55,616 nt of DNA from a virus: positions 1 to 55,616 of the IMG/VR virus record IMGVR_UViG_3300045242_000161. The stretch is one strand, 5' to 3'. Below, piece after piece: positions 17,678 through 35,070 of the stretch (the stretch's first letter is position 1; each line of letters begins with the position of its first letter). The notes beneath the pieces were generated by a model. It was given only the letters and a program-made list of their open reading frames with translations. It was not told where the DNA came from and did not search any database. The position numbers and the translations under genes were made by a program.

Positions 17678-17830
17678 TCAAGGGCGCGATAGAGCCTCCA
17701 ATAACTCCGGCTCAACACGAATTCGACGCTTCAGGTCCTCGACGATCTCATGCGCCATCTTCGCAAAGGTCTCATCCTGGTTTTTCGCTATCTTTTCAGC
17801 GATCAGCAGTTCGAGACGGTATTCGCTCAT
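17678..17830 (-). CDS. Small charged protein coupled to DNA polymerase
   Basis: 50 residues. Its ATG overlaps the polymerase stop (ATGA), so translation is coupled. The sequence begins SEYRLELLIAEKIAKNQDE and continues with a single amphipathic helix (TFAKMAHEIVEDLKRRI). Helical, highly charged. It may be an accessory subunit, but no family is recognised. It was found only by reading the gap. Confidence 0.6.
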   Translation of the reverse strand: MSEYRLELLIAEKIAKNQDETFAKMAHEIVEDLKRRIRVEPELLEALSRP

Positions 17831-19776
17831 TTCGAGTCTCCCCAGGTTGCGGCTACTTTACTATCGACAACAACAGGTATCTCCAACTGCACACAGTCTT
17901 CCATGATCGAGGCCTGTTCCCGTGCTACCCTCTCACTGGTTACCGAGAATCCAAGCGCGTCGTGTTCCGTGATCAGCGGTAGGTGACCGGCACGATAGCA
18001 GTTGACCATAGCCTGCTTCGTTTGATCCGCTGCCGATCCCTGAATCCGTCTATTGAGCGCCTTATTCAGGAACATATACTCACCGCCTCGCATAGGGAAG
18101 CGGCATCTGCGGTTGTATATGGTGGTGATGTAACCGAGCTGCTTAACCATCGTCTGAGCATCTCTAGCCAAAGGCTGGACGAATGGCACACGTTCATAGA
18201 ATCTATCGAGCAGGGCTTGGCCCTCGGTTCCAGCAACTTCGACGGTTCGACCATTGATCACTTTATGGGTGGTAGGTAGACCTAATTCATGGCAGAGTTT
18301 AGCACCGCCCATGCCGTATGTAATGCCCAAGAATATCGTCTTGGCGTGTTGGCGGGAAATGCCGCCCATCCATTTGGCACACATACCGTGATAGTCGGTT
18401 CGTGGATTCTCGTTGAAGATCTTAACTGCTTCCGCGGCCCCGCGTAACCGCAATATAGACGCGTAGTGCAAGGATAGCCGCGGCTCCTGTGATGAATAAT
18501 CGGCATTGTGCCACAATTCACCTTCTTCCGGCAACATGAGACAGCGGACTAGTTTCTTGATCTCTTCATCGCGCGATGGCAGTTGTTGAAAGTTCGGGTT
18601 AGACGATGAGAACCGGCCCGTAACAGTGCCGTAACCGCTTCCATCGTCATCTTCGCGTCGTAGAGGATGAAACTCAGGGTGGATTCGTCCGTTCTTGACA
18701 TGGCGGAATACATGTCCGTCGATGAAGGTGGTCCTCGCCTTGTTGTATCTCCGCAGTTCCAGTATGTCTCCAATGACGGAGGATTGTGTGGCGTTTTCTT
18801 CAAGCCAATTCTTCTGGACGGAGGGTTTGTCCGTCTTGGTCCGAGGTAAGGAGATGCCGGCCTGTACACAGGCTCGCGCGATCGTCTCATTCTCCCACGC
18901 CGATACGAGGACTCCTGTGGCATTTTGAATACGCCTGATGCAGTCGAGTTCTTTGTTTTGGAGTTTGATCCTTGCCTGTTCCGCTGCATCGAGATCAACA
19001 CGAACGCCGCGCATACGCATCGCCACACAGACGGTGATGACATCACGCTCTAGGTCTGCGAGCTCTTTCAGCCCTTGTTGAGCGATCTGCGGTTTGAAGA
19101 AGTCGTATAGTCTCAGGGCTAGAGTCGCGTCCATCTCGGCATACGGCCCAACGTACTTGGCAGGCAATCTCCAGAGATTGTCGTATATATTTTTGACGCC
19201 GTAACCCCCGGCAACCTTCTGTAGGAGAGAGTCGTCTTTGCCAACCCCAAGGATATCCTTGGAGAGATTGTCCAGGGAGTATGACAGACGGTTCTCGTCC
19301 AGGAGAGCGGCGAGACCTTGTACGTCAACCGCACCATTGTAAGGTCTGATCCCCATACGGTTGCACCAGCCCAGGTCGTAAAGCGAATTGGCGGCAACCA
19401 TCTGCACATTAGATCTACCCAACTGCTCACGGAGCCAGGCGATTACGTCTCCGTCGAAGTTGCCTTCGGGATGACGAATCGCGTAATAGGCCGATCGACC
19501 ACAGGAAGCCACCGCAACTCCGATTGGGTAATCGTCAGCGGTTGGGAAGGCCCAAGCACTACCGACTGTTGTAAGGGTGGTATCTCGGGTTTCCCAGTCA
19601 ATTGCGGTTACTCCTTCTATCGGGATGAATTCCGTAGGTGGCACCCAGTTAGACTCATAGTTAGGCGTGATCATTCCCTTGGGCTCGAATAGCGTTGTGC
19701 CGCCCACCGTTGGGCGTGTCGCGGTCCTGACAGGAGTGCGTGTGGGTTTGGCTGGTTCGTCCCAGAAAAGATTCAT
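17827..19776 (-). CDS. DNA polymerase A family with 3'-5' exonuclease domain
   Basis: 649 residues, replicative polymerase. Exonuclease motifs: AIDWET (D60, E62), NSLYD (D134) and YAEMD (D216). Polymerase motifs: A, DYSSQEPRL (D426); B, KTIFLGITYG (about 479-488); then NRRIQGSAAD (576-585); and C, EHDALGF (H605-D606). There is no 5'-3' nuclease domain. Two differences from PolA consensus are notable: motif A has SQEPR instead of SQIELR, and motif C has Ala607 where Glu is usual. The gene overlaps QueE by 4 bp and leads into a 50-residue coupled gene, within the QueF-DpdA-clamp-QueE-polymerase operon. Confidence 0.93.
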   Translation of the reverse strand: MNLFWDEPAKPTRTPVRTATRPTVGGTTLFEPKGMITPNYESNWVPPTEFIPIEGVTAIDWETRDTTLTTVGSAWAFPTADDYPIGVAVASCGRSAYYAIRHPEGNFDGDVIAWLREQLGRSNVQMVAANSLYDLGWCNRMGIRPYNGAVDVQGLAALLDENRLSYSLDNLSKDILGVGKDDSLLQKVAGGYGVKNIYDNLWRLPAKYVGPYAEMDATLALRLYDFFKPQIAQQGLKELADLERDVITVCVAMRMRGVRVDLDAAEQARIKLQNKELDCIRRIQNATGVLVSAWENETIARACVQAGISLPRTKTDKPSVQKNWLEENATQSSVIGDILELRRYNKARTTFIDGHVFRHVKNGRIHPEFHPLRREDDDGSGYGTVTGRFSSSNPNFQQLPSRDEEIKKLVRCLMLPEEGELWHNADYSSQEPRLSLHYASILRLRGAAEAVKIFNENPRTDYHGMCAKWMGGISRQHAKTIFLGITYGMGGAKLCHELGLPTTHKVINGRTVEVAGTEGQALLDRFYERVPFVQPLARDAQTMVKQLGYITTIYNRRCRFPMRGGEYMFLNKALNRRIQGSAADQTKQAMVNCYRAGHLPLITEHDALGFSVTSERVAREQASIMEDCVQLEIPVVVDSKVAATWGDSK

Positions 19777-20462
19777 GGTATCTCCAGATATTTGTGGATC
19801 TGTAACTGGGCCGTGTAACCGTATTGCATAGCGGTTCTGGCGACTAAGGCACGGTTGTTGCCGTTGGTATTTTCTTCCGGTGTGTCAACCGGTGTTATGT
19901 AGACTGTTGAGTTAGGAGGCGGACGGGAGAGAAAAACCTTCGGCCCATCTGTTCTTTGCGTGTTGGTGTAAGGTAATCCATCGGAACTGTCAGTGTGCCC
20001 CTCCAGCAGGGGGTACTTCCAATACTTGGCGTGTTCCCGAATCTTTGGATGGACTAATGGAGTTTTTGGCGATACTACTATGGTGGTTGCCAGTAACCAA
20101 TCCTGCCAAATAACTCCTGCCGTTTCTACCTGTATTGGATAGCCGGCAGACCAGAGCAGTTCAACAAGTTTCAGGAGGTTCTGTCGGCAGGGTTCTCCTC
20201 CTGTCAGGACTACCAAGGTTTCCTTACGTCTTGCGAGTTCTTTAATCTGCCGGAACATCTCATCCGGAGACATATATGGATCACGGTCATCATCCCACTG
20301 TGTATCACACCACCAACATCTCAGGTTACAACCGCTCATCCGAACGAAGACGGCACGCTGTCCGGAGAATGGGCCCTCTCCCTGTAGTGTCAGGAAGATC
20401 TCATGGACCTGTAGGCGGTCGGGGTTGGTCTCTTTGGCACGAACAGGATTAGTTCCGCGCAT
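19773..20462 (-). CDS. queE: 7-carboxy-7-deazaguanine synthase (radical SAM)
   Basis: 229 residues. Converts 6-carboxytetrahydropterin to 7-carboxy-7-deazaguanine. The radical-SAM cluster motif CNLRCWWC (C45, C49, C52) is followed by DTQWD, and LTGGEPCRQ is the glycine-rich SAM motif. The N-terminal FLTLQGEGPFSGQRAVFVR fits QueE, where Q-G-E-G-x-x-x-G binds substrate. The gene overlaps both neighbours (sliding clamp upstream by 14 bp, polymerase downstream by 4 bp), so base synthesis and DNA synthesis are co-expressed. It is intact. Confidence 0.93.
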   Translation of the reverse strand: MRGTNPVRAKETNPDRLQVHEIFLTLQGEGPFSGQRAVFVRMSGCNLRCWWCDTQWDDDRDPYMSPDEMFRQIKELARRKETLVVLTGGEPCRQNLLKLVELLWSAGYPIQVETAGVIWQDWLLATTIVVSPKTPLVHPKIREHAKYWKYPLLEGHTDSSDGLPYTNTQRTDGPKVFLSRPPPNSTVYITPVDTPEENTNGNNRALVARTAMQYGYTAQLQIHKYLEIP

Positions 20463-21432
20463 TGGATTCCCCTCCTTCTGTGTATACGGCCATTAGTCCC
20501 TTGACATTTCGACCTGACCAGAAGGCTTTTGCAGATGTAAGTTGAATATGGGTTGCGTCTCGCAATACTTCTTCAAATCTGTCTACACTCCATCGAGTTA
20601 CATCCGATGTAGGAGTCTCGATTTCAATCTCAGCATCTGATAGAGTAGAGTCTACCACCATTTTATTAGGATGGATCGTGATCATTCCACGTACTGCCCG
20701 GGTAACTTCTGCGAAGGCAGATCTCCAGTCCCCTGGAATCTCCCAAAGATTATCTGGGACCTGATCAACGATAGAACTGGCCCGCGGATCGAATTCCTGA
20801 TTGATTGTCAACCCTCTAACAGCTGTTCCGTCAGGCCAACCGAAGACGATAAACGGTTGGGTTCCTTCGGCATTAATTGGGGCTGCGATTGTGGAGGGGA
20901 GTGATGGGGCTGTAGAAAGGAATTCTAGTACCCAATTGGGGAGTAGGGCCTTGATCGGGGCAGGTTCGGGTAGTTCGAACCGGGCTAGGGTCTTAGTGTC
21001 CGTGACGAAGATCCTGTTGCCATCAACCTGGGCTCCCATCGCCCATGGATATTGGGCGTCATTTGCGACATACCGTCGTGCCCGCATTAGAATCTGTAAG
21101 AATGCCGGGGTCAGTGGAGAACTACTATTCGGGAAGTATGCGTCCGGATACTCGTCGGCACTCCTGACGGTAATATTAACTTTAGTGCGGCCCGTCTTGA
21201 CCGTTAGTCGATTACCAAGTTCAAAGGTTGATGAATCGCTGATCGCCTGCTTGAGTTCTTTGGCAGGTGCCAAGAAATGAATAGGGAGGTCACACGGGCT
21301 GCGTGCGAGTAGGCGATCATTAGTTGCGTATACATAACCGCCTCGAACTAGGACGTGCGTCATATACGTGATAGCAGAAGTTGAGGCTAGTGCTCGCTCA
21401 ACCCGGCTTAAAGCCTGTGCAAGGGACGGCAT
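20449..21432 (-). CDS. Sliding-clamp-like (DnaN-like) processivity factor
   Basis: 327 residues. The pattern fits a divergent beta clamp: YMTHVLVRGGYVYATNDRLL (like the first-domain turn where bacterial clamps read ...DG.L.lsaTD.e), FLAPAKELKQAISD, and a C-terminal NVKGLMAVY like the usual ...P.V.GLIMPM end. It lies between DpdA and QueE/PolA. The family call rests on fold-like pattern and position beside PolA. Confidence 0.65.
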   Translation of the reverse strand: MPSLAQALSRVERALASTSAITYMTHVLVRGGYVYATNDRLLARSPCDLPIHFLAPAKELKQAISDSSTFELGNRLTVKTGRTKVNITVRSADEYPDAYFPNSSSPLTPAFLQILMRARRYVANDAQYPWAMGAQVDGNRIFVTDTKTLARFELPEPAPIKALLPNWVLEFLSTAPSLPSTIAAPINAEGTQPFIVFGWPDGTAVRGLTINQEFDPRASSIVDQVPDNLWEIPGDWRSAFAEVTRAVRGMITIHPNKMVVDSTLSDAEIEIETPTSDVTRWSVDRFEEVLRDATHIQLTSAKAFWSGRNVKGLMAVYTEGGESNARN

Positions 21433-21441
21433 GTATTCCTC

Positions 21442-22383
21442 CTAATCGAACAGGGACGTTTGGACGCCTACTTCTTTTCGTTCTTGGCTGAGGATCTCCT
21501 TCATGGAAATCATATTAAAGGCACACCGGAGAGGAAATGAGTCAGCGAGCTGCTTAACATCGAAGCCTCGCTCATCTATGATCCGCATCCAATGAGCACG
21601 TCTCTCAGATGAGAATGTGTCGAAATGTCGATCCTGGTCACTCAATCGCTTTGATTTACTGGAGATAGGCACCATCTTAAAAGACCCGCTCTCCACGGAG
21701 AAGAGGATATAGCCATAAGCAGACATATGGATCCATGATGCACTATCCACGCTGTGCCATGGCACCGATAATAGCATATCAGCGCCCGTCGTCGCAAGCC
21801 CATGAGTCCGAAAGTTTTTGGTAAGTCGGTGGACTCTTTGGGCCCAAGGTCTACGTTCACTCTCATGAACGTCATTTCGCGGACTCGCACAGATGTAATT
21901 ACCGTCAGCCGCCTGGGCCATTACTTCGTCAAGTCGACTCCAAGCCTCATTCTGGTGGAATACCGGCAATACAATCTTCCCAAAACCAGCTTCTAATCGC
22001 GTCTGGTTCCAATCACTGTCTTTGCACGCCTGGATCCGTTCCTCAGGTGTGGCAGTTTTGGTCCAGGAACCTGGGATAACGTCTAGGTTGATGAGCCATA
22101 TCTTATCACATACATCTTTGAAGGCGTTAATGCCGAACTGGAAGTTGACATGGACTTCACCAACAGTCATCCTACGACCTTTCGTCCAGGCCGTGAATGC
22201 ACCACTGTCTAGGATGACTTCTTTGAGTCGAAGGCCATTCCGTGAATACTGCAGTCCGGTCCGCTCTACGCTGCTCAAATACTGATCGTGACAAGAGAAT
22301 AGGCGGTACTCCATCCTGGGGATGTAGGGCACGAATTCCTTGGAAAACTGGAACCCGCTGAAAAAGAACTTCTCAGTCATCAT
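21442..22383 (-). CDS. dpdA: DpdA-type DNA transglycosylase (TGT-like) inserting 7-deazaguanine
   Basis: 313 residues from the ATG at 22383; the upstream frame to 22464 is the end of QueF in another frame. It is a distant relative of tRNA-guanine transglycosylase, which swaps guanine for a 7-deazaguanine in DNA. Signatures: ILDSGAFTAW (N-terminal D-S-G-A-F with catalytic-type Asp), LINLDVIPGS, IVLPVFHQNEAW, and THGLATTGADMLLSVPWHSV near the C-terminal substrate region. The start overlaps the QueF stop. The combination with QueF predicts preQ1 as its substrate. DpdA subtype cannot be assigned by eye. Confidence 0.85.
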   Translation of the reverse strand: MMTEKFFFSGFQFSKEFVPYIPRMEYRLFSCHDQYLSSVERTGLQYSRNGLRLKEVILDSGAFTAWTKGRRMTVGEVHVNFQFGINAFKDVCDKIWLINLDVIPGSWTKTATPEERIQACKDSDWNQTRLEAGFGKIVLPVFHQNEAWSRLDEVMAQAADGNYICASPRNDVHESERRPWAQRVHRLTKNFRTHGLATTGADMLLSVPWHSVDSASWIHMSAYGYILFSVESGSFKMVPISSKSKRLSDQDRHFDTFSSERRAHWMRIIDERGFDVKQLADSFPLRCAFNMISMKEILSQERKEVGVQTSLFD

Positions 22384-22816
22384 TCTGCCAGGTGATAGAC
22401 GGTTGGAAGGAGAGCCCACCGCGCGGTGAGAAGTAGCCTGTGATCTCGAGCTCTGCCGGATCAACCGCTTCGATGAAGTCGCTGGCGATGCGTGCGATAA
22501 CTGCCTCGTGGAAGGCTTTTTGATTGCGATAGGATTGTAGGTAGAGTTTTAGACTCTTGCTCTCGACACACTTCTCATTAGGAGTGTAGACGATGCGGAT
22601 CTTCCCGAAGTCAGGTTGACCCGTCACTGGGCAGAGACAGGTGAACTCATCTCGTTCGGATTCGATCGTGACAGAGGATTCAGGATACTCCATCATGGGA
22701 TTTGGAAATGTGTCCAGCGTGAGGACATTCGGCTCCATAGGTGTCTCTGTCCGCACACCCAACGTGTGGAGTTGGATGGGCGGTTGGCGACGTGGCCTAA
22801 GTGGGGACGTGCTCAT
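22373..22816 (-). CDS. queF: NADPH-dependent preQ0 reductase-like QueF
   Basis: 147 residues. QueF reduces the nitrile of preQ0 to the aminomethyl group of preQ1. Catalytic residues are in place: LCPVTGQPDF (C62, D69) and AFHEAV (H103, E104), with spacing 7 and 41 as in short-form QueF, and CVESKSLKLYLQSYRN for NADPH binding and assembly. It overlaps the small wHTH-like gene upstream by 4 bp and DpdA downstream by 11 bp. Because all catalytic positions are kept, I favour a real reductase over a QueF-like amidinotransferase. The DNA base would then be preQ1 or a derivative. Confidence 0.9.
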   Translation of the reverse strand: MSTSPLRPRRQPPIQLHTLGVRTETPMEPNVLTLDTFPNPMMEYPESSVTIESERDEFTCLCPVTGQPDFGKIRIVYTPNEKCVESKSLKLYLQSYRNQKAFHEAVIARIASDFIEAVDPAELEITGYFSPRGGLSFQPSITWQNDD

Positions 22817-23136
22817 TCGAACAGATTACCTCCTTCTTTTGCCTTGATGTTACGTGGGTTGGTGTCGGATCGCCGTATATACTGGGGTGGATGTAGGACG
22901 AGATTGGGCAGGCACCAGACGACGACGCGGTTGTATGTGTCATCATATGAAGCGACGATATCGCGCTTCATCAACCTTGGAAGTTCGCGTCCAACATCTT
23001 TCGGATCACGCTTCGAAAAGACGTGGGTGTAATCAATCAGATAGTTCTCAATGTCGTTCGCCGCAAGGGGTCTGTTTGGGTCAATATTCAAGACTTCCAA
23101 GACTGCTGCGGTGACTTTAGCATCATCGTCAATCAT
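22813..23136 (-). CDS. Small winged-helix-like protein at head of the QueF-DpdA operon
   Basis: 107 residues, the first gene after a TTGCGT-N17-TAGGAT promoter. Helical N-terminus (DDAKVTAAVLEVLNIDPNRP) and a segment like a winged helix (DVGRELPRLMKRDIVASYDD then a beta hairpin NRVVVWCLPNL). A DNA-binding or autoregulatory role fits its leader position, where a 9-bp hairpin with GCAA loop precedes the start. No named family. Confidence 0.6.
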   Translation of the reverse strand: MIDDDAKVTAAVLEVLNIDPNRPLAANDIENYLIDYTHVFSKRDPKDVGRELPRLMKRDIVASYDDTYNRVVVWCLPNLVLHPPQYIRRSDTNPRNIKAKEGGNLFE

Positions 23137-23141
23137 AGGAA

Positions 23142-23163
23142 GATCCTCAGTTGCCTGAGGATC
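23142..23163 (-). promoter_or_regulatory. 5' UTR hairpin with GCAA tetraloop
   Basis: Perfect 9-bp inverted repeat GATCCTCAG / CTGAGGATC with loop GCAA on the transcribed strand (23151-23154 as TTGC on +). It begins at the -10 element of the promoter and ends 5 bp before the start codon of the wHTH-like gene. It could be an operator for that gene's product or an RNA stabiliser. Confidence 0.55.
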
Positions 23164-23189
23164 CTAGCGTAATTCTGCCAAATACGCAA
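23161..23189 (-). promoter_or_regulatory. TTGCGT-N17-TAGGAT promoter of the QueF-DpdA-clamp-QueE-PolA operon
   Basis: -35 TTGCGT (23189-23184), 17 bp, -10 TAGGAT (23166-23161). Spacer contains GCAGAATTACGC, as in the promoter at 17603-17631. The five overlapping genes downstream appear to form one transcript. Confidence 0.78.
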
Positions 23190-23197
23190 GCCCAGGA

Positions 23198-23223
23198 CTA
23201 CGGGAAGATTGCTCTTCCCGTAG
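23198..23223 (-). terminator. Strong hairpin after the DUF932 gene (no U-tract)
   Basis: Perfect 11-bp stem CTACGGGAAGA / TCTTCCCGTAG with a GCAA tetraloop on the - strand, between the DUF932 stop (23235) and the next promoter. No T-run follows, so it may be a Rho-dependent or 3'-end stabilising hairpin rather than a classical intrinsic terminator. Confidence 0.5.
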
Positions 23224-23234
23224 CCTTGCGGTAA

Positions 23235-24266
23235 CTAGACCGCAAGCTCAAGGGCTAGGTTGAGTGCCTTCTGCTTCGTCTTAGCACGCTCCCCCAGCCA
23301 CGCCTGGTAGATGCGGTTGTCCTGGCTACGGCCCACTTGATGGTCGAGCACATAGGTGACAGCATTCACCGCACCCCACCACGTTCCGCGGGATGACGGC
23401 AGCTCGCTTCCCGGCGCCGTCTCGAACGCCTGGAGCGACTTCGTCACCAACGTAGACTGCCGCGGTGCCCGGGTCGTGGTCACCACTGCCTCTTCAGTCG
23501 TCTCAGACTCCTCTGCCCCAACAGCCTCATCAGCGACCTGTCGGACGGTCAACTGCGTCGGCGTCAGCTTGAACACCTTCGTGAGGTATTCGGTCAACGC
23601 CTCAGTGCTCGGCACGTTGTGTTGGGCCAAGACTAGCGCCTGATCAGCCAGCCTCGCATTAGCATCAACTGCCATGCCTAGGGCCTGTTCTGCCGCCGCC
23701 GTCGCCTCACCGTTGAACTCACGCAAGTGCGCCATCTTGAACGCCCGCTGCGATAGGTTGCTGAGAGCCATCGTCAGGGTGTTCATGCAGACGACCCGCA
23801 CACTGGTGAAGTCCGCTGTCATCGCGTAGCCCGGCACATGAGGATTGCAGAGCAGCAGGTAACCGCGGTTGATATCGTCGCCGATCGCGAATTCGCGGTT
23901 GATACGGGCCAGGCCCCAGATGAACTTGCCCGCCATCAGACTGCCGGCCGTCTCCATGGTCATGTGACCCGCTTCCGTGAACTTCTTGAAGAAGTTCATG
24001 ACGTCGGAGTTCTGGATCGGGACGTACCGGTTAGTGACGACACTCAAGACGGAGTTGTCGCTGACACGCACCAGTCCCTGATGTGACGGGATCTGGGACA
24101 TGCCATTAGCATTGGACGCCATGAACAGCGGACGCTTCTCCACGGCCCAGTTGATGCCGGCGGCTTGCGCCATCTCTTCCGGCGTGAGATTGGGGTCGAC
24201 GATATTGCCCAGGCCGTGCCAAGGCGTCTCGATGGCCGAAGCCATTGTCTCCACTGCGTCAGTCAT
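23235..24266 (-). CDS. DUF932 phage/plasmid-type protein
   Basis: 343 residues. It matches DUF932: ETPWHGLGNIV at the N-terminus, VSDNSVLSVVTNRYVPIQNS, GDDINRGYLLLCNPHVPGY, and TSVRVVCMNTLTMAL. These proteins are frequent on phages and plasmids and are often highly expressed; their biochemical role is not established. An acidic insert EESETTEEAVV lies near residue 255. The gene has its own promoter with an operator-like repeat (24297-24329) and a strong 3' hairpin, so it is a monocistronic unit. It is GC-richer than most neighbours. Confidence 0.85.
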   Translation of the reverse strand: MTDAVETMASAIETPWHGLGNIVDPNLTPEEMAQAAGINWAVEKRPLFMASNANGMSQIPSHQGLVRVSDNSVLSVVTNRYVPIQNSDVMNFFKKFTEAGHMTMETAGSLMAGKFIWGLARINREFAIGDDINRGYLLLCNPHVPGYAMTADFTSVRVVCMNTLTMALSNLSQRAFKMAHLREFNGEATAAAEQALGMAVDANARLADQALVLAQHNVPSTEALTEYLTKVFKLTPTQLTVRQVADEAVGAEESETTEEAVVTTTRAPRQSTLVTKSLQAFETAPGSELPSSRGTWWGAVNAVTYVLDHQVGRSQDNRIYQAWLGERAKTKQKALNLALELAV

Positions 24267-24296
24267 TTGGTACTCCTTGAATATAACGTGCAGATG

Positions 24297-24329
24297 AGCT
24301 GATATAAGCCTTAATCAGCTGGACCGCAA
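24297..24329 (-). promoter_or_regulatory. TTGCGG-N17-TATATC promoter with operator-like repeat
   Basis: -35 TTGCGG (24329-24324), 17 bp, -10 TATATC (24306-24301) upstream of the DUF932 gene. An inverted repeat AGCTGAT (24297-24303) / ATCAGCT (24314-24320), 10-bp centre, covers the -10 and part of the spacer. A repressor could block RNA polymerase there. Confidence 0.65.
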
Positions 24330-24331
24330 GA

Positions 24332-24610
24332 CTAGACCTTATTCGGACTCAAAAGAATATTGTGAATTCCTTCCAGTGCCGGATCGTTCGGGTACAGTTC
24401 ATCCGCCTTGGCGAGCAACTCCTGTATGAGCGGATAGTGAGAATCGTGCCCATACAATACACCCAAGGTCCGGGGTGTCTTGCCGTCGCCGACATAGTAG
24501 GTGTCAGAGGGTAGCATCCGAATTGTAGCAGTTCGGATCTCGTCTTCGATCTTATCGTCACTGTGGCCCATGAGTTGGCCGTATGCGATGATCAGAGGAT
24601 AATCAACCAT
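24332..24610 (-). CDS. Hypothetical protein
   Basis: 92 residues from ATG with GGAGG upstream. Sequence PLIIAYGQLMGHSDDKIEDE then MLPSDTYYVGDGKTPRTLGV and a helical C-terminus PLIQELLAKADELYPNDPAL. Soluble, acidic. It has its own TTGTGA-N17-TATATA promoter at 24635-24663, whose -35 overlaps the QueD stop. No family recognised. Confidence 0.55.
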   Translation of the reverse strand: MVDYPLIIAYGQLMGHSDDKIEDEIRTATIRMLPSDTYYVGDGKTPRTLGVLYGHDSHYPLIQELLAKADELYPNDPALEGIHNILLSPNKV

Positions 24611-24634
24611 TGAAGCCTCCTTTCGATACGTCTA

Positions 24635-24663
24635 TATATAATGCGAGATCGCACAATTCACAA
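24635..24663 (-). promoter_or_regulatory. TTGTGA-N17-TATATA promoter
   Basis: -35 TTGTGA (24663-24658) overlaps the queD stop codon; 17-bp spacer; -10 TATATA (24640-24635). The spacer contains the near-palindrome TGCGA-GA-TCGCA (24642-24653), an operator candidate. It drives the 92-residue gene. Confidence 0.65.
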
Positions 24664-25125
24664 GGAGAAGGATGCCCAACAATTGGGCGTTTCAAAAACA
24701 GTTACTTTGAATATCCCAGGAACCGCCTTTTGCAACCGGTAGTACCAAAGCTCTGAGAGTCGCTCTGCGGTTGGAGCGTGTTCGATCAGAGTGAGCTTGG
24801 TGAAGAAGGGCTCGGACGGCAGTAAAGAAAAACACGGTCTAGGCACCACGCTAATCGGTGCGCCCGCGATTATCTCAGCCACAGGATCATTATACGCTAG
24901 GATCATCGCATGATCGAACGTAGCGTGGATGAGTTCCATCATCGCCTGTTTGATCGTTCCGAAGTCAGTCACCATATCGGATTCCGCACCGACGGTGACG
25001 AGCTCGCCGAAGACCGTTGCCTCGATCACATAGCGGTGGCCGTGGAGACCTTTGCACATGCCGCCATGCGTGGCGATACGATGCCCGGCGTCGATTTCGA
25101 TCCTACGTGTGATCTTGCTGATCAT
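24658..25125 (-). CDS. queD: 6-carboxytetrahydropterin synthase
   Basis: 155 residues. Converts dihydroneopterin triphosphate to 6-carboxytetrahydropterin, the second step to 7-deazaguanines. The zinc ligands H15 (DAGHRI), H28 and H30 (LHGHRY), the catalytic-type C24 (GGMCKG) and the DHAMIL Asp-His are present. The C-terminal ETPNCWASF provides the substrate-binding Glu. The ATG overlaps the QueC stop (ATGA), so the two enzymes are coupled. Slightly longer than the usual 120-140 residues owing to an insert near residue 85. Confidence 0.93.
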   Translation of the reverse strand: MISKITRRIEIDAGHRIATHGGMCKGLHGHRYVIEATVFGELVTVGAESDMVTDFGTIKQAMMELIHATFDHAMILAYNDPVAEIIAGAPISVVPRPCFSLLPSEPFFTKLTLIEHAPTAERLSELWYYRLQKAVPGIFKVTVFETPNCWASFSL

Positions 25126-25937
25126 ACAGCCCCCATTTCATGTGCGAGCAGATCTAGCTTGTAGTCGATCGTGCCCTTCAGGTTGTGTAGCCTCCGCACA
25201 ACCGCATAGTGAACACCGTCTGGACAGTTTATCTTGCCTTCAAAGGCTGCCCGCGCGATCATCGGATCCGGCACCGCCGCCACACGGAACCCTTCGGCCC
25301 GTAACACGGTTGCATGGTCCTGCGTAATAGGCGGATATTCTCCCGAATAGGCCGTGTGGGTGTATGCCAACGCCTTATAGCACCCAGGTAAGGTCATCGC
25401 GTATCGGATTGAATCGGCCTTAGATCGATACGCCAAAGGAGTGTGGATCTGTAACCGTGTATGCCCCTCACCAAGGGCAATATTTAACGCGTCTTCTGCC
25501 GATGCGATGAAAGAGCTACGGCAATCGGGATAATTGGCTGTATCCTCCTGTGATACGCCAATACCGATCTCCGTGGCACCGACGTGCACAGCATAGTTCG
25601 CAGCGAACACTAAGAAAATCAGGTTACGCATCGGCACGAATGTAAGTTCGGTCCGCCCACCAATAGTTTCAACCATCCTGGCGAAGCTCTCGTAAGTCTC
25701 TAGGGACTGTTTCTCATCCACCAGGGGAGAGGCGGACCAGAGTTTGTCGATACGGCAGAGATAGTGATCGCGGACGTTAGCAAGCCGGGCAACGTCAATT
25801 GCCGCCGACACCTCTATAGAGTGCTTTTGGTTGTAGTTGAACGTGATCGCGTGCATGACCTCGCACGTCTGTTTCATGTGGAACAGGACTGTTGTACTAT
25901 CCTGGCCACCGCTTAAAATACATAGACCAACTGTCAT
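25122..25937 (-). CDS. queC: 7-cyano-7-deazaguanine synthase QueC lacking the C-terminal zinc cysteines
   Basis: 271 residues from the ATG at 25937 (GGGAGGT ribosome site); the frame to 25994 is not needed. Makes preQ0 from 7-carboxy-7-deazaguanine with ATP and ammonia. The PP-loop is LSGGQDSTT (8-16). FVPMRNLIFLVFA and the ATEIGIGVSQEDTANYPDCR core are typical. In bacterial QueC, a zinc site of one Cys plus C-G-x-C-x-x-C follows the T-x-S-C-Y strand. Here that region reads THTAYSGEYPPITQDHATVL, without any cysteine, before the conserved RAEGFRVAAVPDP end. The fold may be stabilised differently. Coupled to QueD. Confidence 0.9.
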   Translation of the reverse strand: MTVGLCILSGGQDSTTVLFHMKQTCEVMHAITFNYNQKHSIEVSAAIDVARLANVRDHYLCRIDKLWSASPLVDEKQSLETYESFARMVETIGGRTELTFVPMRNLIFLVFAANYAVHVGATEIGIGVSQEDTANYPDCRSSFIASAEDALNIALGEGHTRLQIHTPLAYRSKADSIRYAMTLPGCYKALAYTHTAYSGEYPPITQDHATVLRAEGFRVAAVPDPMIARAAFEGKINCPDGVHYAVVRRLHNLKGTIDYKLDLLAHEMGAV

Positions 25938-25948
25938 GTGAACCTCCC

Positions 25949-26782
25949 TCAAAAGGGGATGTTGTCGTCTATCTTCTCCTGGTCGCGGTTCCACGTTGGA
26001 CCGTCGTCTACTTGATTGCCGTATTTGGGATCATAGGCATCGTCAGTTGCACCCGGCGGTGCCGTGACGGTTACAGACCCCTCACCAACCGCCTTGCGGA
26101 ATATGCGTGCCTTGTTCAGGAGCATGATGCCGTTGGGGTATGCGGACACGGTCTGCAGTGGTGTCGTCTCCCAGCCGTACCAGTCATTCTTGTCGTTGCT
26201 CTCGTGCACGCTCGTCAGTTTGAAGACGCGCGCGTAGATCGGTGCCGGATACGGGCCCTTATCATCCTGCAGTTCGAAGTTCTGTAGCAGTGCGTTCCAG
26301 CGCCGCGCTTTCTTCCACTGTGTGCTGCCCATAGAGATCAACGCCGGTGTGACTTCGTTTTCGTTTATGTGCAATACATAGTAGGTAGCCAGGGACACGA
26401 TCTCATTCCCCGCACGCGTTAGCCGGGTGAAGTTCGGACCCTCCGACGCATTGTTATAGGCGCTATCGTCACTGCCCCAGTCCCGCACCAAACCGCCACG
26501 ATCGGGCTTCCATTCGACGTATCGCCGTTGGAAACGGCACGGTATCACCAACACCTCTTTGAAGAGTTGGTGGGTGACCGTGTTGAAGATATCGCCGGAC
26601 AGGGCCTCTTTGATATACTCAGGCCTAACCGACTTACGCTGCGGGCTCAGGTCCTGGATGATCGTGAGGAATGGTAGGACGATGTCTTCAACGGCAAACG
26701 CCTCACGGTCCTCGGAGTGTTCGCGCATGGAGAACGCCTTGGTGGCGATCTCCTTGTTATCGGTCGGAATAACATCAGACAT
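25949..26782 (-). CDS. Putative single-stranded DNA-binding protein
   Basis: 277 residues from the ATG at 26782 (GGAGCCC upstream). The core has VLPFLTIIQDLSPQRKSVRP, GDIFNTVTHQLFKEVLVIPC, and an OB-like beta-rich region with aromatics (WKPDRGGLVRDWG; NDWYGWETTPL). The C-terminus is acidic and ends KIDDNIPF, very close to the DDDIPF tip with which bacterial SSB recruits partners. The family is widespread in phages without a firm name. Overlaps the upstream coiled-coil gene and is 12 bp before QueC, so it belongs to the QueC-QueD transcript. Confidence 0.6.
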   Translation of the reverse strand: MSDVIPTDNKEIATKAFSMREHSEDREAFAVEDIVLPFLTIIQDLSPQRKSVRPEYIKEALSGDIFNTVTHQLFKEVLVIPCRFQRRYVEWKPDRGGLVRDWGSDDSAYNNASEGPNFTRLTRAGNEIVSLATYYVLHINENEVTPALISMGSTQWKKARRWNALLQNFELQDDKGPYPAPIYARVFKLTSVHESNDKNDWYGWETTPLQTVSAYPNGIMLLNKARIFRKAVGEGSVTVTAPPGATDDAYDPKYGNQVDDGPTWNRDQEKIDDNIPF

Positions 26783-27326
26783 TTTTGGGCTCCTTGAGAA
26801 CGGCCTTGTTTGCCGTAAAAAGGTTGAGCACTTCATGAACATGCGTGCCGAGTTTCAAGCAGTCACGCATCAGTTTCTTTAGGGTCATACCATGAACCCC
26901 TTCAGAAATTGTCACATTCGTCTGGTTGTCACCACGCAGTTGGTTGTAAAGGGCGATGGCCTTGTCGCGATTTGCCCTGCCAAAATCAACCGATACCTGG
27001 ACTTTTAAGACCCCTTCATTGTGGGTCTCTTCTAACCAGCGGATGGCAGTTTCTGCTTTCTCAGTCTCTTTTGGCCATGTGGCTTCAACTACCTGGCTGA
27101 GAGAGATTGTGGCTCCATCAACAGTGACGAATTTCTGCAGGCCGGCTTCAAACATGAGATCTGGAATACGATACATCTCCAGCTCAGTAATTTCTGTCTG
27201 GAGTAATTTCAAGGAGTTCTCAAGAGCGGTGCGCTCAGCCAATTTGCCACGTAGCCGTTCGATATTGGTTGAGAGGCTATCCAAGGTCTCTCCTCGGGCC
27301 TTCACCAATGGTGCGAATTCGTCCAT
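26775..27326 (-). CDS. Coiled-coil protein upstream of SSB-like gene
   Basis: 183 residues. A long N-terminal coiled coil (STNIERLRGKLAERTALENSL, KLLQTEITELEMYRIP) is followed by a compact alpha/beta domain (DLMFEAGLQKFVTVDGATIS; EGVLKVQVSVDFGRANRDKA) and a helical end. First gene behind a TTGCGT-N17-TAGTAT promoter. Similar coiled-coil plus small domain proteins occur next to recombination or SSB genes in phages, but I cannot name the family. Confidence 0.6.
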   Translation of the reverse strand: MDEFAPLVKARGETLDSLSTNIERLRGKLAERTALENSLKLLQTEITELEMYRIPDLMFEAGLQKFVTVDGATISLSQVVEATWPKETEKAETAIRWLEETHNEGVLKVQVSVDFGRANRDKAIALYNQLRGDNQTNVTISEGVHGMTLKKLMRDCLKLGTHVHEVLNLFTANKAVLKEPKNV

Positions 27327-27348
27327 GCTTGGCTCCTTTCAGATACGC

Positions 27349-27377
27349 ATACTAGCGTAGGCACGCAGAATACGCAA
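27349..27377 (-). promoter_or_regulatory. TTGCGT-N17-TAGTAT promoter of the SSB-QueC-QueD unit
   Basis: -35 TTGCGT (27377-27372), 17 bp, -10 TAGTAT (27354-27349), 23 bp upstream of the coiled-coil gene start (27326). Back-to-back with the + strand nuclease gene at 27425. Confidence 0.78.
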
Positions 27378-27424
27378 GGGCCCCAGGCTCTTTTTTCGCA
27401 AAACAGGATGCGTATATCTTAGCA

Positions 27425-27730
27425 GTGACCGAAGAGCACCTCTGGAAGATCTGGAGACCAAGGCTTAGAGGGTGGTGGGAACGTGTCGAGGTATACCAAC
27501 CTGTTGGATATCCGGATGTATACGGCATCCATGAGGTCCAACCGCAGTACCTGGAACTCAAAGTAGGACCGCCATCTCCGAGTCTGCTACGCGCTTCGCA
27601 AAGAATCTGGTTGCGCCGATGGTGGGAACTAGGAGGCGTGGCACACATCATGGTAGGCGACGCAGACCACATCCTCTTCTTCAAGGACCTGGACCTACGC
27701 CGCCCTGTTGAGGTGCCGTTTTACAGGTAG
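27425..27730 (+). CDS. VRR-NUC-like PD-(D/E)XK nuclease
   Basis: 101 residues from a GTG. The pattern GYPDVYGI then YLELKVGPP (PD and ExK catalytic residues), followed by SQRIWLRRWWELGGVAHIMV, is that of VRR-NUC endonucleases, where the conserved Q and helix follow the active site. It could process branched phage DNA or degrade host DNA. It is the only protein gene on the + strand between 14 and 35.9 kb, and its end overlaps the opposing GGCT gene by 10 bp. A TATATC at 27413-27418 places transcription start at about the GTG, so a leaderless mRNA is possible. Confidence 0.75.
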   Translation: MTEEHLWKIWRPRLRGWWERVEVYQPVGYPDVYGIHEVQPQYLELKVGPPSPSLLRASQRIWLRRWWELGGVAHIMVGDADHILFFKDLDLRRPVEVPFYR

Positions 27731-28269
27731 AAGTATTTGGCGGTGCGTTTGATTTTCCGCGGCATCCGACTCACTGCCTCGTGGAAGCGTATCAAATGCG
27801 TGTTGCGGTCCTTCTCAGGTAGGCTAGACTCCAGGGCCTCGTGCAACTGTCCGGCAGGGCAGTGGAAGTCGGTGTAGCCGGTCCTGATGATGTGATAGTA
27901 CCATGGACTCGGAGGCGCCTCGTCATTCGTCGTCATGACATAGGCGAAACCGGTGACGGTCTTCTTCTTGGTCCTCACGGGGAGGAGCACCCGCTGGTAG
28001 AGACGGGGCCATCCTTCATACGCATCCAGGGCCCGCACGTTGTTTTCCTCCACCCACCAGAGACCTACGGGCAGGCTGCCGCCTCGCTGTGGGACGATAT
28101 CCGCCACTCCGCGGAACACGAGCTCGGCCGAGATACGCCCAGAGCAGATGGCCTGTGCTCCTGGGCACCGGCCCTTCATCCCATCCTTGCTCATGTTGCT
28201 CCCATAGGCGATATAAGGTATCCGGGCCAGTTCGGCCGGAGTGAGGTTGTCGGCGTTCTTCCAAGGCAT
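27721..28269 (-). CDS. Gamma-glutamylcyclotransferase-like (GGCT/AIG2) protein
   Basis: 182 residues. The GGCT signature is clear: IPYIAYGSNMSKDGM near the N-terminus (substrate loop), GRISAELVFRGVADIVPQ, LPVGLWWVEENNVRALDAYEGWPRLY with the catalytic-type Glu, and a late beta strand FAYVMTTND. GGCT enzymes cyclise gamma-glutamyl groups to 5-oxoproline, releasing the free amine. It lies 11 bp downstream of the amidoligase gene, an association known from bacterial amidoligase systems. The C-terminus is basic (RMPRKIKRTAKYF). Substrate is unknown; see the finding on preQ1. Confidence 0.8.
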   Translation of the reverse strand: MPWKNADNLTPAELARIPYIAYGSNMSKDGMKGRCPGAQAICSGRISAELVFRGVADIVPQRGGSLPVGLWWVEENNVRALDAYEGWPRLYQRVLLPVRTKKKTVTGFAYVMTTNDEAPPSPWYYHIIRTGYTDFHCPAGQLHEALESSLPEKDRNTHLIRFHEAVSRMPRKIKRTAKYFYL

Positions 28270-28280
28270 CGTCTTACTCC

Positions 28281-29312
28281 TTATACGAATGAAGTGGTCA
28301 ACCAGGCGACGGCGAACTCAGGCAGCCCGTCGGTTAGATAACCGCGGATCTCAAACTGGGTGGCGGTTGTTGTAGCCACCGACCCCGTCGTCATGCGAAC
28401 CGGAACGTGATAGGTTGCGTTCGCGCCACGGCCCTCGCGCACTACGTTGATGCCCCGACTGCGAATATCACTAATCATGGACGAGATCGTCGCCATCTCC
28501 CAGCCCGTCAGGCTGGCGAGTTCAGCGGCGGTTGTGCGCCGCGCGATCACTGCTGTGCAGCAGAGTGCATTCTTCGTGCCGGAGCGGTAGGGGTTGATGA
28601 CGGGCTCCACCACCATCGCTGGGGCTGCTTCACCATTGCGTGGGGTCCGCATCTTCGCCACCGTCTCGTTGACGAAGAAGACCAAGAAAGCGATCCAACT
28701 GGCCACGCGTGCGGAGTCCAGCGTAGACTCATGCATCCGAAACTCGATGGTGCCCAGGTCCCCCAACCGCATCGTGTTGACACTCGCATACCGCGTGCCG
28801 TGGATGCCCGACGGCCGCATGTAAGAAGCTGCACTCCCCACCACCAGGTTCCAGGCATTCTGCATCGACCGGCTGCTCATCGCAGGGCAGTAATGCGGAT
28901 TGTTCTGCCGATGTTCGGGGAAGTGCTGCATGATTTCAGTTTCGAACTGGCCGTAGCGCCAAACCACCGCCGCCTGCTCGGCTGGGCTAAGGTCGCGGGC
29001 ATCAACATGAACATGGATGCCACACCGCTGATTGGTGACATAACCGTTGGTGCGAAGAAGGTCCACGACCTTCACCACTTCGGCCCGACCACGAGCGTCC
29101 TTGAGCTTGGGGCTCACCAACTCAACGCCACGATCGTAGCCGATCGAGCCGTCGGTCTTGGCGCTCCAGTTGCGGTGCGCGTTACGCTGGAAGTAACCGC
29201 GGGCCGAAGTGCTTACACCATTTTCAGTGAGCAACCTCGCGGCGGAGGCTGTCGGACTCGGCGTATGCGGAGGCGACCAGCACTCGATCTCAACTCCAAA
29301 GTAGCGTCCCAT
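28281..29312 (-). CDS. Amidoligase with C-terminal winged-helix-like domain
   Basis: 343 residues. The amidoligase family (glutamine synthetase/gamma-glutamylcysteine ligase fold) is shown by RYFGVEIECWSPP, WSAKTDGSIGYDRGVELVSP, NQRCGIHVHVDARDLSP, YASVNTMRLGDLGTIEFRMH. These ATP-dependent enzymes form amide bonds between a carboxylate and an amine. Residues about 260-320 (RRTTAAELASLTGWEMATIS ... GINVVREGRGANATYHV) look like a winged helix used for DNA or RNA binding, an unusual fusion. It is first in a two-gene unit with the GGCT gene, under promoter 29351-29379. Substrate cannot be read from sequence. Confidence 0.82.
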   Translation of the reverse strand: MGRYFGVEIECWSPPHTPSPTASAARLLTENGVSTSARGYFQRNAHRNWSAKTDGSIGYDRGVELVSPKLKDARGRAEVVKVVDLLRTNGYVTNQRCGIHVHVDARDLSPAEQAAVVWRYGQFETEIMQHFPEHRQNNPHYCPAMSSRSMQNAWNLVVGSAASYMRPSGIHGTRYASVNTMRLGDLGTIEFRMHESTLDSARVASWIAFLVFFVNETVAKMRTPRNGEAAPAMVVEPVINPYRSGTKNALCCTAVIARRTTAAELASLTGWEMATISSMISDIRSRGINVVREGRGANATYHVPVRMTTGSVATTTATQFEIRGYLTDGLPEFAVAWLTTSFV

Positions 29313-29350
29313 CTTCTTTCTCCAGGTTGTGGTATCGTCTTAATAACGAC

Positions 29351-29379
29351 ATGATACCATATTTCCGACCTAAACGCAA
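29351..29379 (-). promoter_or_regulatory. TTGCGT-N17-TATCAT promoter of the amidoligase-GGCT unit
   Basis: -35 TTGCGT (29379-29374), 17 bp, -10 TATCAT (29356-29351). It lies between folE and the amidoligase gene and makes the amidoligase-GGCT pair a separately controlled transcript. Confidence 0.78.
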
Positions 29380-29406
29380 GGTCGAAATTACCTGGAGTAA
29401 AGAAAT

Positions 29407-29973
29407 TCATTTAGTCTTTTCTGCCGCCAGACACAGCTGTAGAAACTCGGCGCGAGCAGAAGGCTCGTCACGGAAACACCCGAGCATCGCACTGGTGGTG
29501 GTCACCGACTGGTGGAGCTTAACGCCACGACTCGACATGCAGCCGTGCTCAGCGCGTATGAGCACACCGACGCCTAGCGGTTCTAGGTTGCGTGAGAGGC
29601 AGTCCGCCACCTGCATAGTGATACGCTCCTGGACCTGAAGGCGGGCGGCGTAGGCTTCGACCACGCGGGCCAGTTTGGAGAGTCCTACAATCTTACCGGA
29701 TGGCACGTAACCGACATGTGCGGTTCCGATGATCGGGGCCAGGTGGTGTTCACAGTAACTGTGCACGTCAATCCCGTGGACGATTACCATCGCGTCGTAA
29801 TCGTTATCATTCTCGAAGGTCTTCAACAATTCGTCCGGGTTGATAGAGTAGCCACGCATCCAATACCGCCACGCCTCGGCGGCACGTCGCGGTGTCTCAA
29901 ATAGGCTGGGACGGTTGACATCCTCACCCGTAGCATGGATTAATTCGATGAAGATGTCTTCTAACTGCTTCAT
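29407..29973 (-). CDS. folE: GTP cyclohydrolase I
   Basis: 188 residues. Converts GTP to dihydroneopterin triphosphate, the entry step to 7-deazaguanines. FolE signatures: VHSYCEHHLAPIIGTAHVGY (zinc Cys and His, GTP-binding), GLSKLARVVEAYA, QVQERITMQVAD, and RAEHGCMSSRGV (second zinc Cys, His). Length is close to the bacterial enzyme. It follows the row of small membrane-protein genes with a 1-base overlap of its ATG with their last stop. With QueD, QueE, QueC and QueF it completes the preQ1 pathway. Confidence 0.95.
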   Translation of the reverse strand: MKQLEDIFIELIHATGEDVNRPSLFETPRRAAEAWRYWMRGYSINPDELLKTFENDNDYDAMVIVHGIDVHSYCEHHLAPIIGTAHVGYVPSGKIVGLSKLARVVEAYAARLQVQERITMQVADCLSRNLEPLGVGVLIRAEHGCMSSRGVKLHQSVTTTSAMLGCFRDEPSARAEFLQLCLAAEKTK

Positions 29974-32583: not shown

Positions 32584-33249
32584 TTAATCGTCAAAGATCA
32601 TTCCGCCCGTCTTATAAGAGGCAGGTGTGAGGCGGGCCACAGGATCCTTCGCCCATCTTAGGATGTCGGGAATGACGTTTGGCAGTTCCAGGTAAGTACA
32701 CCAGGCTTCTAGGCGCTCGAATTTGCGAATCACGTCCGCCACCGCTTCTTGCGTTGGTGCGTGGATCGTGCACATGCCTCCCTTACCGCCAGCGGGTTTA
32801 CGCATCTGGCTGAGACGGCCGAACAGTTGTCCACCAATCTCCCAATGCCCCCGGACGTGCTTGACCGTTATCATCGGAAAGTCACAAGATAGGGTGTGAA
32901 CATCATGGATGTTACAGCGGCCGTCTTCGACCCGAAGATAGCGGCACGCTAATTGACCTTGGCGGTCGGCTTGGAGGTCCGAGAAGAATTCGACTTCTTT
33001 CCCGTTGAAGGTTTCAACGCGTGATGGAATGTCTGGGGGTCGCGGTTCACTGGGGATCCAGTCCATGGTAAATGGACGGCAACACGCACCGCAGTGTGAA
33101 GGGCACTTGTAATCGCGGAACACGGACGGGCTCACGCGTAGCGGTTGTAAGGGGTAGTCGATCCCTTTGAATGTGAAATCCTCCGCCGCCACTGCGTGCA
33201 AGTATTTGGCGACCTTATCAAGCGAATCCATCAGGGTATGGTAGGGCAT
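32584..33249 (-). CDS. YkgJ-family cysteine-cluster protein
   Basis: 221 residues. The eight-cysteine pattern CPSHCGACCRPF, CRYLRVEDGRCNIHDVHTLSC plus FPM fits the YkgJ/CxxCxxCC family, which binds zinc or an iron-sulphur cluster. Another cysteine pair (GMCTIH; AWCTYL) follows. These proteins have been proposed to act in radical or metal chemistry, but their reaction is not established. Close to FolE/Que genes but on its own promoter. Length is in the family's upper range. Confidence 0.75.
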   Translation of the reverse strand: MPYHTLMDSLDKVAKYLHAVAAEDFTFKGIDYPLQPLRVSPSVFRDYKCPSHCGACCRPFTMDWIPSEPRPPDIPSRVETFNGKEVEFFSDLQADRQGQLACRYLRVEDGRCNIHDVHTLSCDFPMITVKHVRGHWEIGGQLFGRLSQMRKPAGGKGGMCTIHAPTQEAVADVIRKFERLEAWCTYLELPNVIPDILRWAKDPVARLTPASYKTGGMIFDD

Positions 33250-33501: not shown

Positions 33502-33968
33502 GGAATGTCCTCATCTGTAATGAGAGGTATCCCCAAATTGGTAAGGAGTTCTCCTAATTGATTTGCCCCATTTAGGACGGATTCTCCTTGGCTACGTCGT
33601 TGGGCTTGGTATACACGAGCTAATACACCTCCGCAGTAATCCACCATGCAGTATCCGGCAGTTGAATCTCTTCCATGTCTTCTTGATCCAAGATACTCTT
33701 CAGTGTGGACAAGAATATCGCGAGACACATCTACAGTTGTTCGTCCGCGTCTCCTTGTTCGTTTGAAAATGTTGGTAGTAACAGGAGTGCAGAAAGATTT
33801 GGGAGACAGATGTTCTTCTATGATTTCAATCGCCTTATTCCATGGAGGTGAGAATCTCTCATATCCAAGGTCTCTTTCTACATCAGAGATTCTTACAATT
33901 CTACGGACATTGAGATCTTCTTTGATAACGTCACAGAACTCTCGTAAGCGAGCTGTATCAGGACTCAT
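33498..33968 (-). CDS. Hypothetical protein coupled to ParB-like gene
   Basis: 156 residues, starting at the ATG at 33968 inside the last codons of the ParB-like gene; the longer frame to 34133 overlaps that gene heavily. It starts SPDTARLREFCDVIKEDLNV, then RFSPPWNKAIEIIEEHLSPK and a basic KRTRRRGRTTVD stretch, ending in a helix ESVLNGANQLGELLTNLG. The basic patch suggests nucleic-acid contact. No family recognised. Confidence 0.6.
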   Translation of the reverse strand: MSPDTARLREFCDVIKEDLNVRRIVRISDVERDLGYERFSPPWNKAIEIIEEHLSPKSFCTPVTTNIFKRTRRRGRTTVDVSRDILVHTEEYLGSRRHGRDSTAGYCMVDYCGGVLARVYQAQRRSQGESVLNGANQLGELLTNLGIPLITDEDIP

Positions 33969-35070
33969 TGGTAATCTGTTGAAGTAAATTTCGAGATCCT
34001 GGATTGTCGGATGAGGAACGTTGAATATGGCGGATCTGCCAGTCGTGGTAGGTCCGTGAGAATCTGTCACGGAGATTGGCTGCACGATGTGCAACGTTGT
34101 TAATCTCCTGGTGGATCTTGTGGAGTCGCTCATTTACTGTTTCACCTTCTAGTGTTGGTAGGAGTTCTTCCATCGCTTGGAGTTCTGTAGCAACTAAGTC
34201 ATATCGTAATGTCTCCTGTAACTTACTGATAATACGCCCTGTGTATTCAGTAAAGTTAACAAGACCGTCTCGATTATGGTAGTGTCGTGTTGCTCTTGTT
34301 GGTTCTTCTTCTTCCGGATCATCCTCAACTATCGGGGGATTACGCACAACACCGATAGACGGTTGCGGAGTAGGATGCGGTGGGTAAATAGGCTCAGGAA
34401 TGGCGACAGGCTCAGCTCGCTCTGCTGCTCTTTGTCGAGCGGCGGTTGTAGGACCGACTTCGTCGGGTCTTGGGGCGTTGAGTCGGACAATGGCTTGGTC
34501 TGCGTGATAGATCTTGGTGCATTCTCGGAAGATCTCAATACGATCAGGTTGTGCAGTTATGACTTCGTGGGCTTTGGCACATACTCGGGCCTGGTGGGTC
34601 ATGCCATTCGATGTAATATCAATCCATCCTAAGAATTCAGCTACATTTCTTTGGGCAGTTCGATTGTGTCCACCAGATCCGTTTGCCTGCGAATTCGCAG
34701 GCAAACCTTGTCTTGCCAGATGTTTTTCGGCAGCGATCCATACTTCCAAATACCGGAAGAAATGGGCGTCATAGTCGTTATCGTTTTCGTTCTTCATGAA
34801 TTGTAACATTTTTACATCGTCTATGTCTCTAACGATGATTGGAATTTCCGCTAAACCGGCACGTCTCCCTGCTTCAATACGATGGTGTCCAAATGCGATT
34901 TGGAACTTACCGCCTTGCGGTCGGGCTAATACGCCTTCCCAAAAACCAACTTCATTGATTGATGCCACGAGGCGTGCGACCTTATCTTCTCCAAGAGGAA
35001 AGGTCACCAAATCGCGGTGAGGGTTTGGCAGTAGTAAGTCGATTGGGATGTTTCGAAGCTCAGCCATCAT
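33958..35070 (-). CDS. ParB/Spo0J-like nuclease-domain protein
   Basis: 370 residues. Residues 1-95 are a ParB N-terminal domain: NIPIDLLLPNPHRD, LVASINEVGFWEGVLARP, FQIAFGHHRIEAGRRAGLAE (the G-x-x-R box II binding CTP/nucleotide). A helical region with MTHQARVCAKAH may act as the DNA-binding part. A proline-rich linker (PEPIYPPHPTPQPS) and a helical C-terminus follow. Phage ParB-like proteins act in partition, transcription control or as nucleases; none can be chosen here. No partner ParA is visible. Confidence 0.8.
   Translation of the reverse strand: MMAELRNIPIDLLLPNPHRDLVTFPLGEDKVARLVASINEVGFWEGVLARPQGGKFQIAFGHHRIEAGRRAGLAEIPIIVRDIDDVKMLQFMKNENDNDYDAHFFRYLEVWIAAEKHLARQGLPANSQANGSGGHNRTAQRNVAEFLGWIDITSNGMTHQARVCAKAHEVITAQPDRIEIFRECTKIYHADQAIVRLNAPRPDEVGPTTAARQRAAERAEPVAIPEPIYPPHPTPQPSIGVVRNPPIVEDDPEEEEPTRATRHYHNRDGLVNFTEYTGRIISKLQETLRYDLVATELQAMEELLPTLEGETVNERLHKIHQEINNVAHRAANLRDRFSRTYHDWQIRHIQRSSSDNPGSRNLLQQITNES

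Follow-up and report, generated by a model that had tools for sequence, protein, structure and literature searches.

What base does a phage place in its DNA when it carries genes both for making 7-aminomethyl-7-deazaguanine (preQ1) and for exchanging it into DNA, and is it made by the usual chemistry? The question is raised by a single IMG/VR virus record, IMGVR_UViG_3300045242_000161, which was analysed over its whole length of 55,616 bases (the window). Genes for FolE, QueC, QueD, QueF, DpdA and QueE all lie on its minus strand within 19773-29973, the QueC is of a form without zinc ligands, and a gene of the CxxCxxCC family lies outside that interval. DNA of preQ1 type in some form is, in our judgement, very probable for this phage. 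That the base is self-made with a working zinc-free QueC, the methyl step being left open, we consider likely. The full proposal, that a large phage branch of QueC does without zinc, a conserved C-terminal extension taking the place of the zinc knuckle, and that the DNA base of this phage is N-methyl-preQ1, the product of a FliB-like iron-sulfur methylase, is offered tentatively and leans to the doubtful side.

We infer the following course from the genes. FolE, QueD, QueE, a QueC active without zinc, and QueF would make preQ1 from GTP; DpdA would exchange guanine in the phage DNA for preQ1 or a derivative; the CxxCxxCC protein (32584-33249) would methylate the aminomethyl nitrogen, giving N-methyl-preQ1 as the final base; and the modified DNA would be shielded from host nucleases, such base replacement being a known defence against restriction. 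The core cassette is of a kind already known: Nanhaivirus has it, as do phages in which dPreQ1 (the deoxynucleoside of preQ1) has been measured; what appears from sequence to be new is the QueC branch lacking zinc ligands and the CxxCxxCC gene linked to QueF.

The cassette and its known relatives

The genes of the cassette, with those packed against them and the CxxCxxCC gene, are as follows.

29407-29973, minus strand: FolE, GTP cyclohydrolase IA, 188 residues (Pfam GTP_cyclohydroI, 6.6e-65; NCBIfam folE above cut-off)
25122-25937, minus strand: QueC (Pfam QueC, 2.8e-46; TIGR00364, 151.5 bits, just above the cut-off of 150.3)
24658-25125, minus strand: QueD, 6-carboxytetrahydropterin synthase, 155 residues (Pfam PTPS, 7.2e-27; TIGR03367, 77.6 bits, below the cut-off of 89.25)
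22373-22816, minus strand: QueF, NADPH-dependent preQ0 reductase, unimodular, 147 residues (Pfam QueF, 1.5e-28; TIGR03139, QueF-II preQ1 synthase, 136.7 bits against 86.9)
21442-22380, minus strand: DpdA, DNA guanine transglycosylase, 312 residues (PHROG 887, 1.8e-38)
20449-21432, minus strand: sliding clamp, the DNA polymerase processivity factor (PHROG 947, 4.6e-23)
19773-20462, minus strand: QueE (PHROG 2076, QueE-like, 3.4e-45; NCBIfam QueE models match below their cut-offs)
17827-19776, minus strand: DNA polymerase of the A family, polA (PHROG 17, 2.7e-92)
32584-33249, minus strand: CxxCxxCC-family protein, 221 residues, proposed N-methylase of preQ1 or dPreQ1 (PF03692, 5.4e-5, above cut-off)

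An earlier note on this DNA had listed the six enzymes, and each is confirmed by a family match. It had also placed three of their genes in an operon with the DNA polymerase and the clamp, and the packing agrees: queF and dpdA overlap by 8 bases, dpdA and the clamp gene are 9 bases apart, and the overlaps of clamp with queE and of queE with polA are 14 and 4 bases, so that queE, dpdA and queF each overlap a neighbour or lie within 9 bases of one. A 4-base overlap joins queD and queC, while folE is set apart from the other cassette genes. The dpdA start is the ATG at 22380 or 22383, overlapping the end of queF, and not the TTG at 22464 of the open reading frame list; that of queC is at 25937, preceded by GGGAGG.

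FolE keeps C-E-H-H and C, and QueD keeps His-Cys-His-His, which we take to be the zinc-binding residues of the two enzymes; the QueE motif CxxxCxxC is present. The earlier claim of a complete preQ1 pathway stands as far as the six genes go, while QueC lacks the textbook zinc motif and completeness rests on the indirect evidence given below.

Among the closest known systems is Nanhaivirus (Dinoroseobacter phages R5C and R26L, Pseudanabaena phage Pan1), which shares FolE, QueC, QueD, QueE, QueF and DpdA together with clamp and PolA, the QueC again being zinc-free. Its DpdA is about 40% identical to that of the window and longer (430-433 residues in R5C and Pan1, against 312), and the QueD of R5C and Pan1 lacks two zinc His that are intact in the window. 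Pan1 has the CxxCxxCC protein, its gene there adjoining queF, whereas R5C and R26L do not. In two phages with QueF, dPreQ1 has been measured: Dp-1, at about 1.7% of G, and HVTV-1, at about 30% (PMC6884629). Streptococcus phage Dp-1 shares QueF, FolE, QueC, QueD and QueE, in a single operon, and a reported DpdA, but its QueC is of the zinc type and its gene order differs. Vibrio phage 6E351A (Schizotequatrovirus), which also has measured dPreQ1, shares the QueF cassette; its QueF has 303 residues, against 147 in the window, and it lacks the CxxCxxCC protein.

A candidate methylase linked to QueF

Because of the CxxCxxCC gene, which lay outside the interval considered in the earlier note, the end product is likely to be a derivative of preQ1, and the likely derivative, on sequence grounds, is N-methyl-preQ1. 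Eight Cys are conserved in the CxxCxxCC protein; a sequence search found no solved relative. In FliB, a lysine N-methylase, a [4Fe-4S] cluster is held by a CxxCxxCC-type motif, and eight Cys of the enzyme are conserved (PMC8598068). The likeness between this flagellin-modifying enzyme and the window protein is one of motif type and description, namely the Cys-rich motif and the eight conserved Cys, and the FliB substrate is a primary amine of the sort that preQ1 also bears. As preQ1 has this amine, N-methylation would be the likeliest function. DpdM, a protein of unusual fold, is reported to methylate dPreQ1.

The gene keeps company with queF. Thirty CxxCxxCC relatives were found in the fetched loci, and 26 of them lie on the same strand as queF and within 260 bases of it or overlapping its frame. 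Among IMG/VR cassette loci a relative occurs in 28/129 with QueF and in 0/87 without, counts that include overlapping fetches of the same contig and loci with short flanks. In the named-phage collection a homologue, confirmed with a second query, is present in 27 of 50,697 records, and all 27 also have QueF. They are Vibrio and Cellulophaga phages, one Mycobacterium phage and Pan1.

Several points weigh against a methyl step. The 27 records span only four lineages; 60 of the 87 phage records with QueF have no CxxCxxCC homologue, R5C and R26L among them; and the case for amine methylation by this family comes from one enzyme of like motif type, FliB, and from DpdM. In the window itself about 10 kb separate the gene from queF, which it usually adjoins elsewhere, so the link between the two is weaker here. 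Taken alone, we regard the methyl step as about evenly balanced.

The protein might instead be an iron or zinc chaperone serving the cassette, in which case the base would be plain dPreQ1. The Pfam family name, putative zinc- or iron-chelating domain, suggests such a role, yet the gene tracks QueF and not QueE in the locus counts just given, and we think a chaperone unlikely.

If the proposed methylation is right, the QueF-linked CxxCxxCC gene would be a cheap genome marker for preQ1 phages that carry a further derivative. A negative control for the marker is provided by the Vibrio phage named 6E351A in one source and 6E35.1a in another, treated here as one phage: in the named-phage searches it has QueF and no CxxCxxCC homologue, and in its DNA a nucleoside of 295 Da, a mass that fits dPreQ1, is present at 15% of deoxyguanosine (PMC12028318). 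Plain dPreQ1 in a phage lacking the gene also counts in favour of the methyl step.

A QueC without zinc ligands

QueC is defined by SGGxDS together with the zinc motif C(x)8CxxCxxC; further marks are a zinc-region Tyr and the motifs YxQxHxxE, VPxRN and YPDC, and zinc is stated to be required (PMC13329287). The window QueC has SGGxDS, YxQxHxxE, VPxRN and YPDC at positions 9, 35, 101 and 136 and keeps the zinc-region Tyr. It does not match C(x)8CxxCxxC: all four zinc Cys are replaced and the stretch contains no Cys at all. Compared with canonical QueC (PF06508 cluster 1), it thus shares the four motifs and the catalytic Lys and Tyr of the C-terminal motif, and differs in the lost ligands and in a conserved C-terminal extension, DPxxxRA...P..NY.

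This form is widespread. Of 79 QueC rows, taken from loci retrieved through DpdA or QueF together with those of the window and of two named phages, 21 lack any Cys in the zinc stretch. A DNA pattern for HT[AS]YxGxYPP retrieved 116 IMG/VR stretches, 113 of which hold such a QueC (112 of 115 new loci with the pattern inside the QueC frame, and the already known L033); many fetched loci are overlapping stretches of one contig, and most adjoin FolE, QueD, QueE and DpdA. The pattern demands the Tyr, whose retention in this set is therefore by construction, and the count of 21/79 is the less biased one. In 84,980 species genomes the pattern matched 16 stretches, six of them QueC, and five of the six contigs belong to metagenome-assembled genomes and may be viral.

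Conservation outside the lost motif is strong. Among 109 distinct zinc-free sequences (rows outside 200-400 residues being excluded from the motif counts) SGGxDS is kept in 109, YxQxHxxE in 108, VPxRN in 107 and YPDC in 102. The C-terminal tail has a median of 45 residues, against 13, with an early DP in 108/109; D224, P225, R229, A230 and P239 of the tail are invariant in 73 aligned sequences. The model of the window protein (predicted local distance difference test score, pLDDT, 96.7) is confident across the whole former zinc region and almost the entire tail, and its nearest PDB entries are the QueC structures 3bl5 and 2pg3. In a tree made with the zinc region and tail left out and near-copies excluded, the zinc label needs at least seven changes, and the zinc-free QueC of locus L044 falls outside the main group, beside the zinc-type L076, with 96% support. 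A diverged member of the defence family QatC/Cap9 was considered and rejected: canonical motifs absent from QatC are kept, and structurally the protein matches QueC better than Cap9. A zinc-free QueC is not mentioned in the literature searched, including the available parts of PMC13329287 and PMC13279940; subscription papers were mostly uncovered, and absence is not proven.

Is this form active? Probably, since the only full-length QueC match of Brackiella oedipodis (4513-5346 of its locus) has it, beside queuosine genes. The genome also holds Tgt, QueF, QueD, QueA and a QueE-like protein adjoining queD, and no recognisable phage genes were found around the gene in the 8 kb seen. The zinc motif is kept in 26/26 strong bacterial QueC matches from the family of Brackiella, itself left out, and B. 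oedipodis seems to have swapped a zinc QueC for the phage type. The QueC of Iggyvirus PBPA162 is also zinc-free; for phage Iggy, dPreQ0 genes are stated and dPreQ0 in its DNA is cited (PMC11008142).

On the other side, the protein lacks a motif described as required, and Brackiella might salvage preQ0 or queuosine. A Pseudomonas host, moreover, has a QueC of its own. An alternative is a QueC that is inactive or halts at the amide 7-amido-7-deazaguanine (ADG), with preQ0 coming from the host enzyme or ADG itself entering the DNA. The missing C(x)8CxxCxxC speaks for that explanation, but the strongly conserved remaining catalytic motifs, the Brackiella gene and the occurrence in a genus reported to carry dPreQ0 all speak against it, as does the QueF beside the zinc-free QueC, which needs a nitrile. 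We consider it quite improbable. If the zinc-free QueC is indeed active, a metal supposed to be required by the QueC family would be unnecessary for nitrile formation. A widespread subfamily, to which the sole full match in a named bacterial strain also belongs, opens the role of zinc in QueC to a direct test.

Two further observations concern these enzymes. Many cassettes with zinc-free QueC (L002, L003, L005, L008-L010, L013, L014, L066, L096 and others) have a QueD that has lost two of its three zinc His (H to F or Y, HGH to HGY). We considered whether QueD and QueC lose zinc together, as QueD His are lost in 56/92 zinc-free against 3/49 zinc-type cassettes (a table that excludes one gapped row, L128, and three rows with another QueC); since only three to five phylogenetically independent pairs exist and show no trend, we make no claim of joint loss. 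Vibrio phage GR7B (968-2558 of its locus) has two QueC-family genes in tandem, both annotated 7-cyano-7-deazaguanine synthase, the second very diverged.

QueF, DpdA and the surrounding genes

The catalytic residues of QueF named in the earlier note, C62, D69, H103 and E104, are exactly as described, and the stretch ESKSLKLY is kept. The family as a whole carries a misleading name, 'GTP cyclohydrolase', in PHROG 5949 and many phage records. Were QueF instead an amidinotransferase of QueF-L type, the DNA would carry archaeosine (dG+). HHpred does tend to name phage QueF proteins QueF-L (PMC6884629), as is also reported for that of MMDA13. Dp-1, initially called QueF-L, has dPreQ1 without dG+ (PMC6884629). 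The window protein exceeds the QueF-II equivalog cut-off, and its closest solved structures, 4f8b, 5udg and 4fgc, are each NADPH-dependent 7-cyano-7-deazaguanine reductases. QueF-L, the archaeosine synthase, is marked by a lost NADPH-site motif, and the ESKSLKLY stretch of the window QueF is present, so this alternative appears very improbable.

The fold predicted for DpdA is that of tRNA-guanine transglycosylases. The model (pLDDT 92.5) matches tRNA-guanine transglycosylases with a best Z of 19.7 and a root-mean-square deviation of 3.2 over 262 residues, and in a second structural look all 50 rows shown were such enzymes (Z 19.0-19.7). A PDB sequence search with DpdA gave no homologue, and Foldseek with the model gave other folds, with no such transglycosylase among the 50 matches listed. 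D58, D100 and D212 are invariant in 56/56 aligned DpdA sequences; all rows except that of the window were chosen from DpdA matches holding DSGAF, and the conservation of D58 is a product of this choice. The gene set, the intact QueF of preQ1-synthase and not QueF-L type, and the predicted fold of DpdA with its conserved Asp all favour the view, already taken in the earlier note, that the base is preQ1 or a derivative and not preQ0 or archaeosine.

Two genes beside folE could in principle act on preQ1.

27721-28269: GGCT-like protein, beside folE
28281-29312: Amidoligase_2 protein, beside folE

Their products might join a residue to preQ1 through its free amine, a plausible acceptor, and both genes adjoin folE. 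The open reading frames of other cassette loci, however, gave no amidoligase or GGCT homologue in a single-sequence search; an amidoligase relative occurs in 121 phage records, of which the 60 listed include none of the listed records with DpdA (50 of 176) or QueF (60 of 87); and modules of this kind are described in one paper as putative modifiers of peptidoglycan. With no homologues beside other cassettes, a role in modifying preQ1 was rejected as extremely improbable. The two genes are 11 bases apart, and the module is known from other phages; here it is unlinked to the deazaguanine genes.

Just as improbable is a pathway that raises queuosine in host tRNA and does not serve DNA: bacterial Tgt does use preQ1 as a substrate, but a phage dpdA lies tightly between queF and the clamp gene, and in CAjan, whose type is found with 9g-type coliphages among the phage relatives of this DpdA, deletion of dpdA abolished the DNA modification (PMC6884629).

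The virus itself has the baseplate, terminase, portal and head genes of a tailed phage; no terminal repeat of 16-200 bases was found at the window ends. The terminases nearest to its own, with about 53% identity, are those of Rhizobium phages RHph_TM3_3_3 and RHph_N28_2, and two window proteins match phage families of Pam3. In the early region, genes of PHROG 1221 (of unknown function), families like gp34 and gp33 of Pam3 and a ParB_N protein are interleaved with the cassette (23235-24266, 25949-27326 and 33958-35070).

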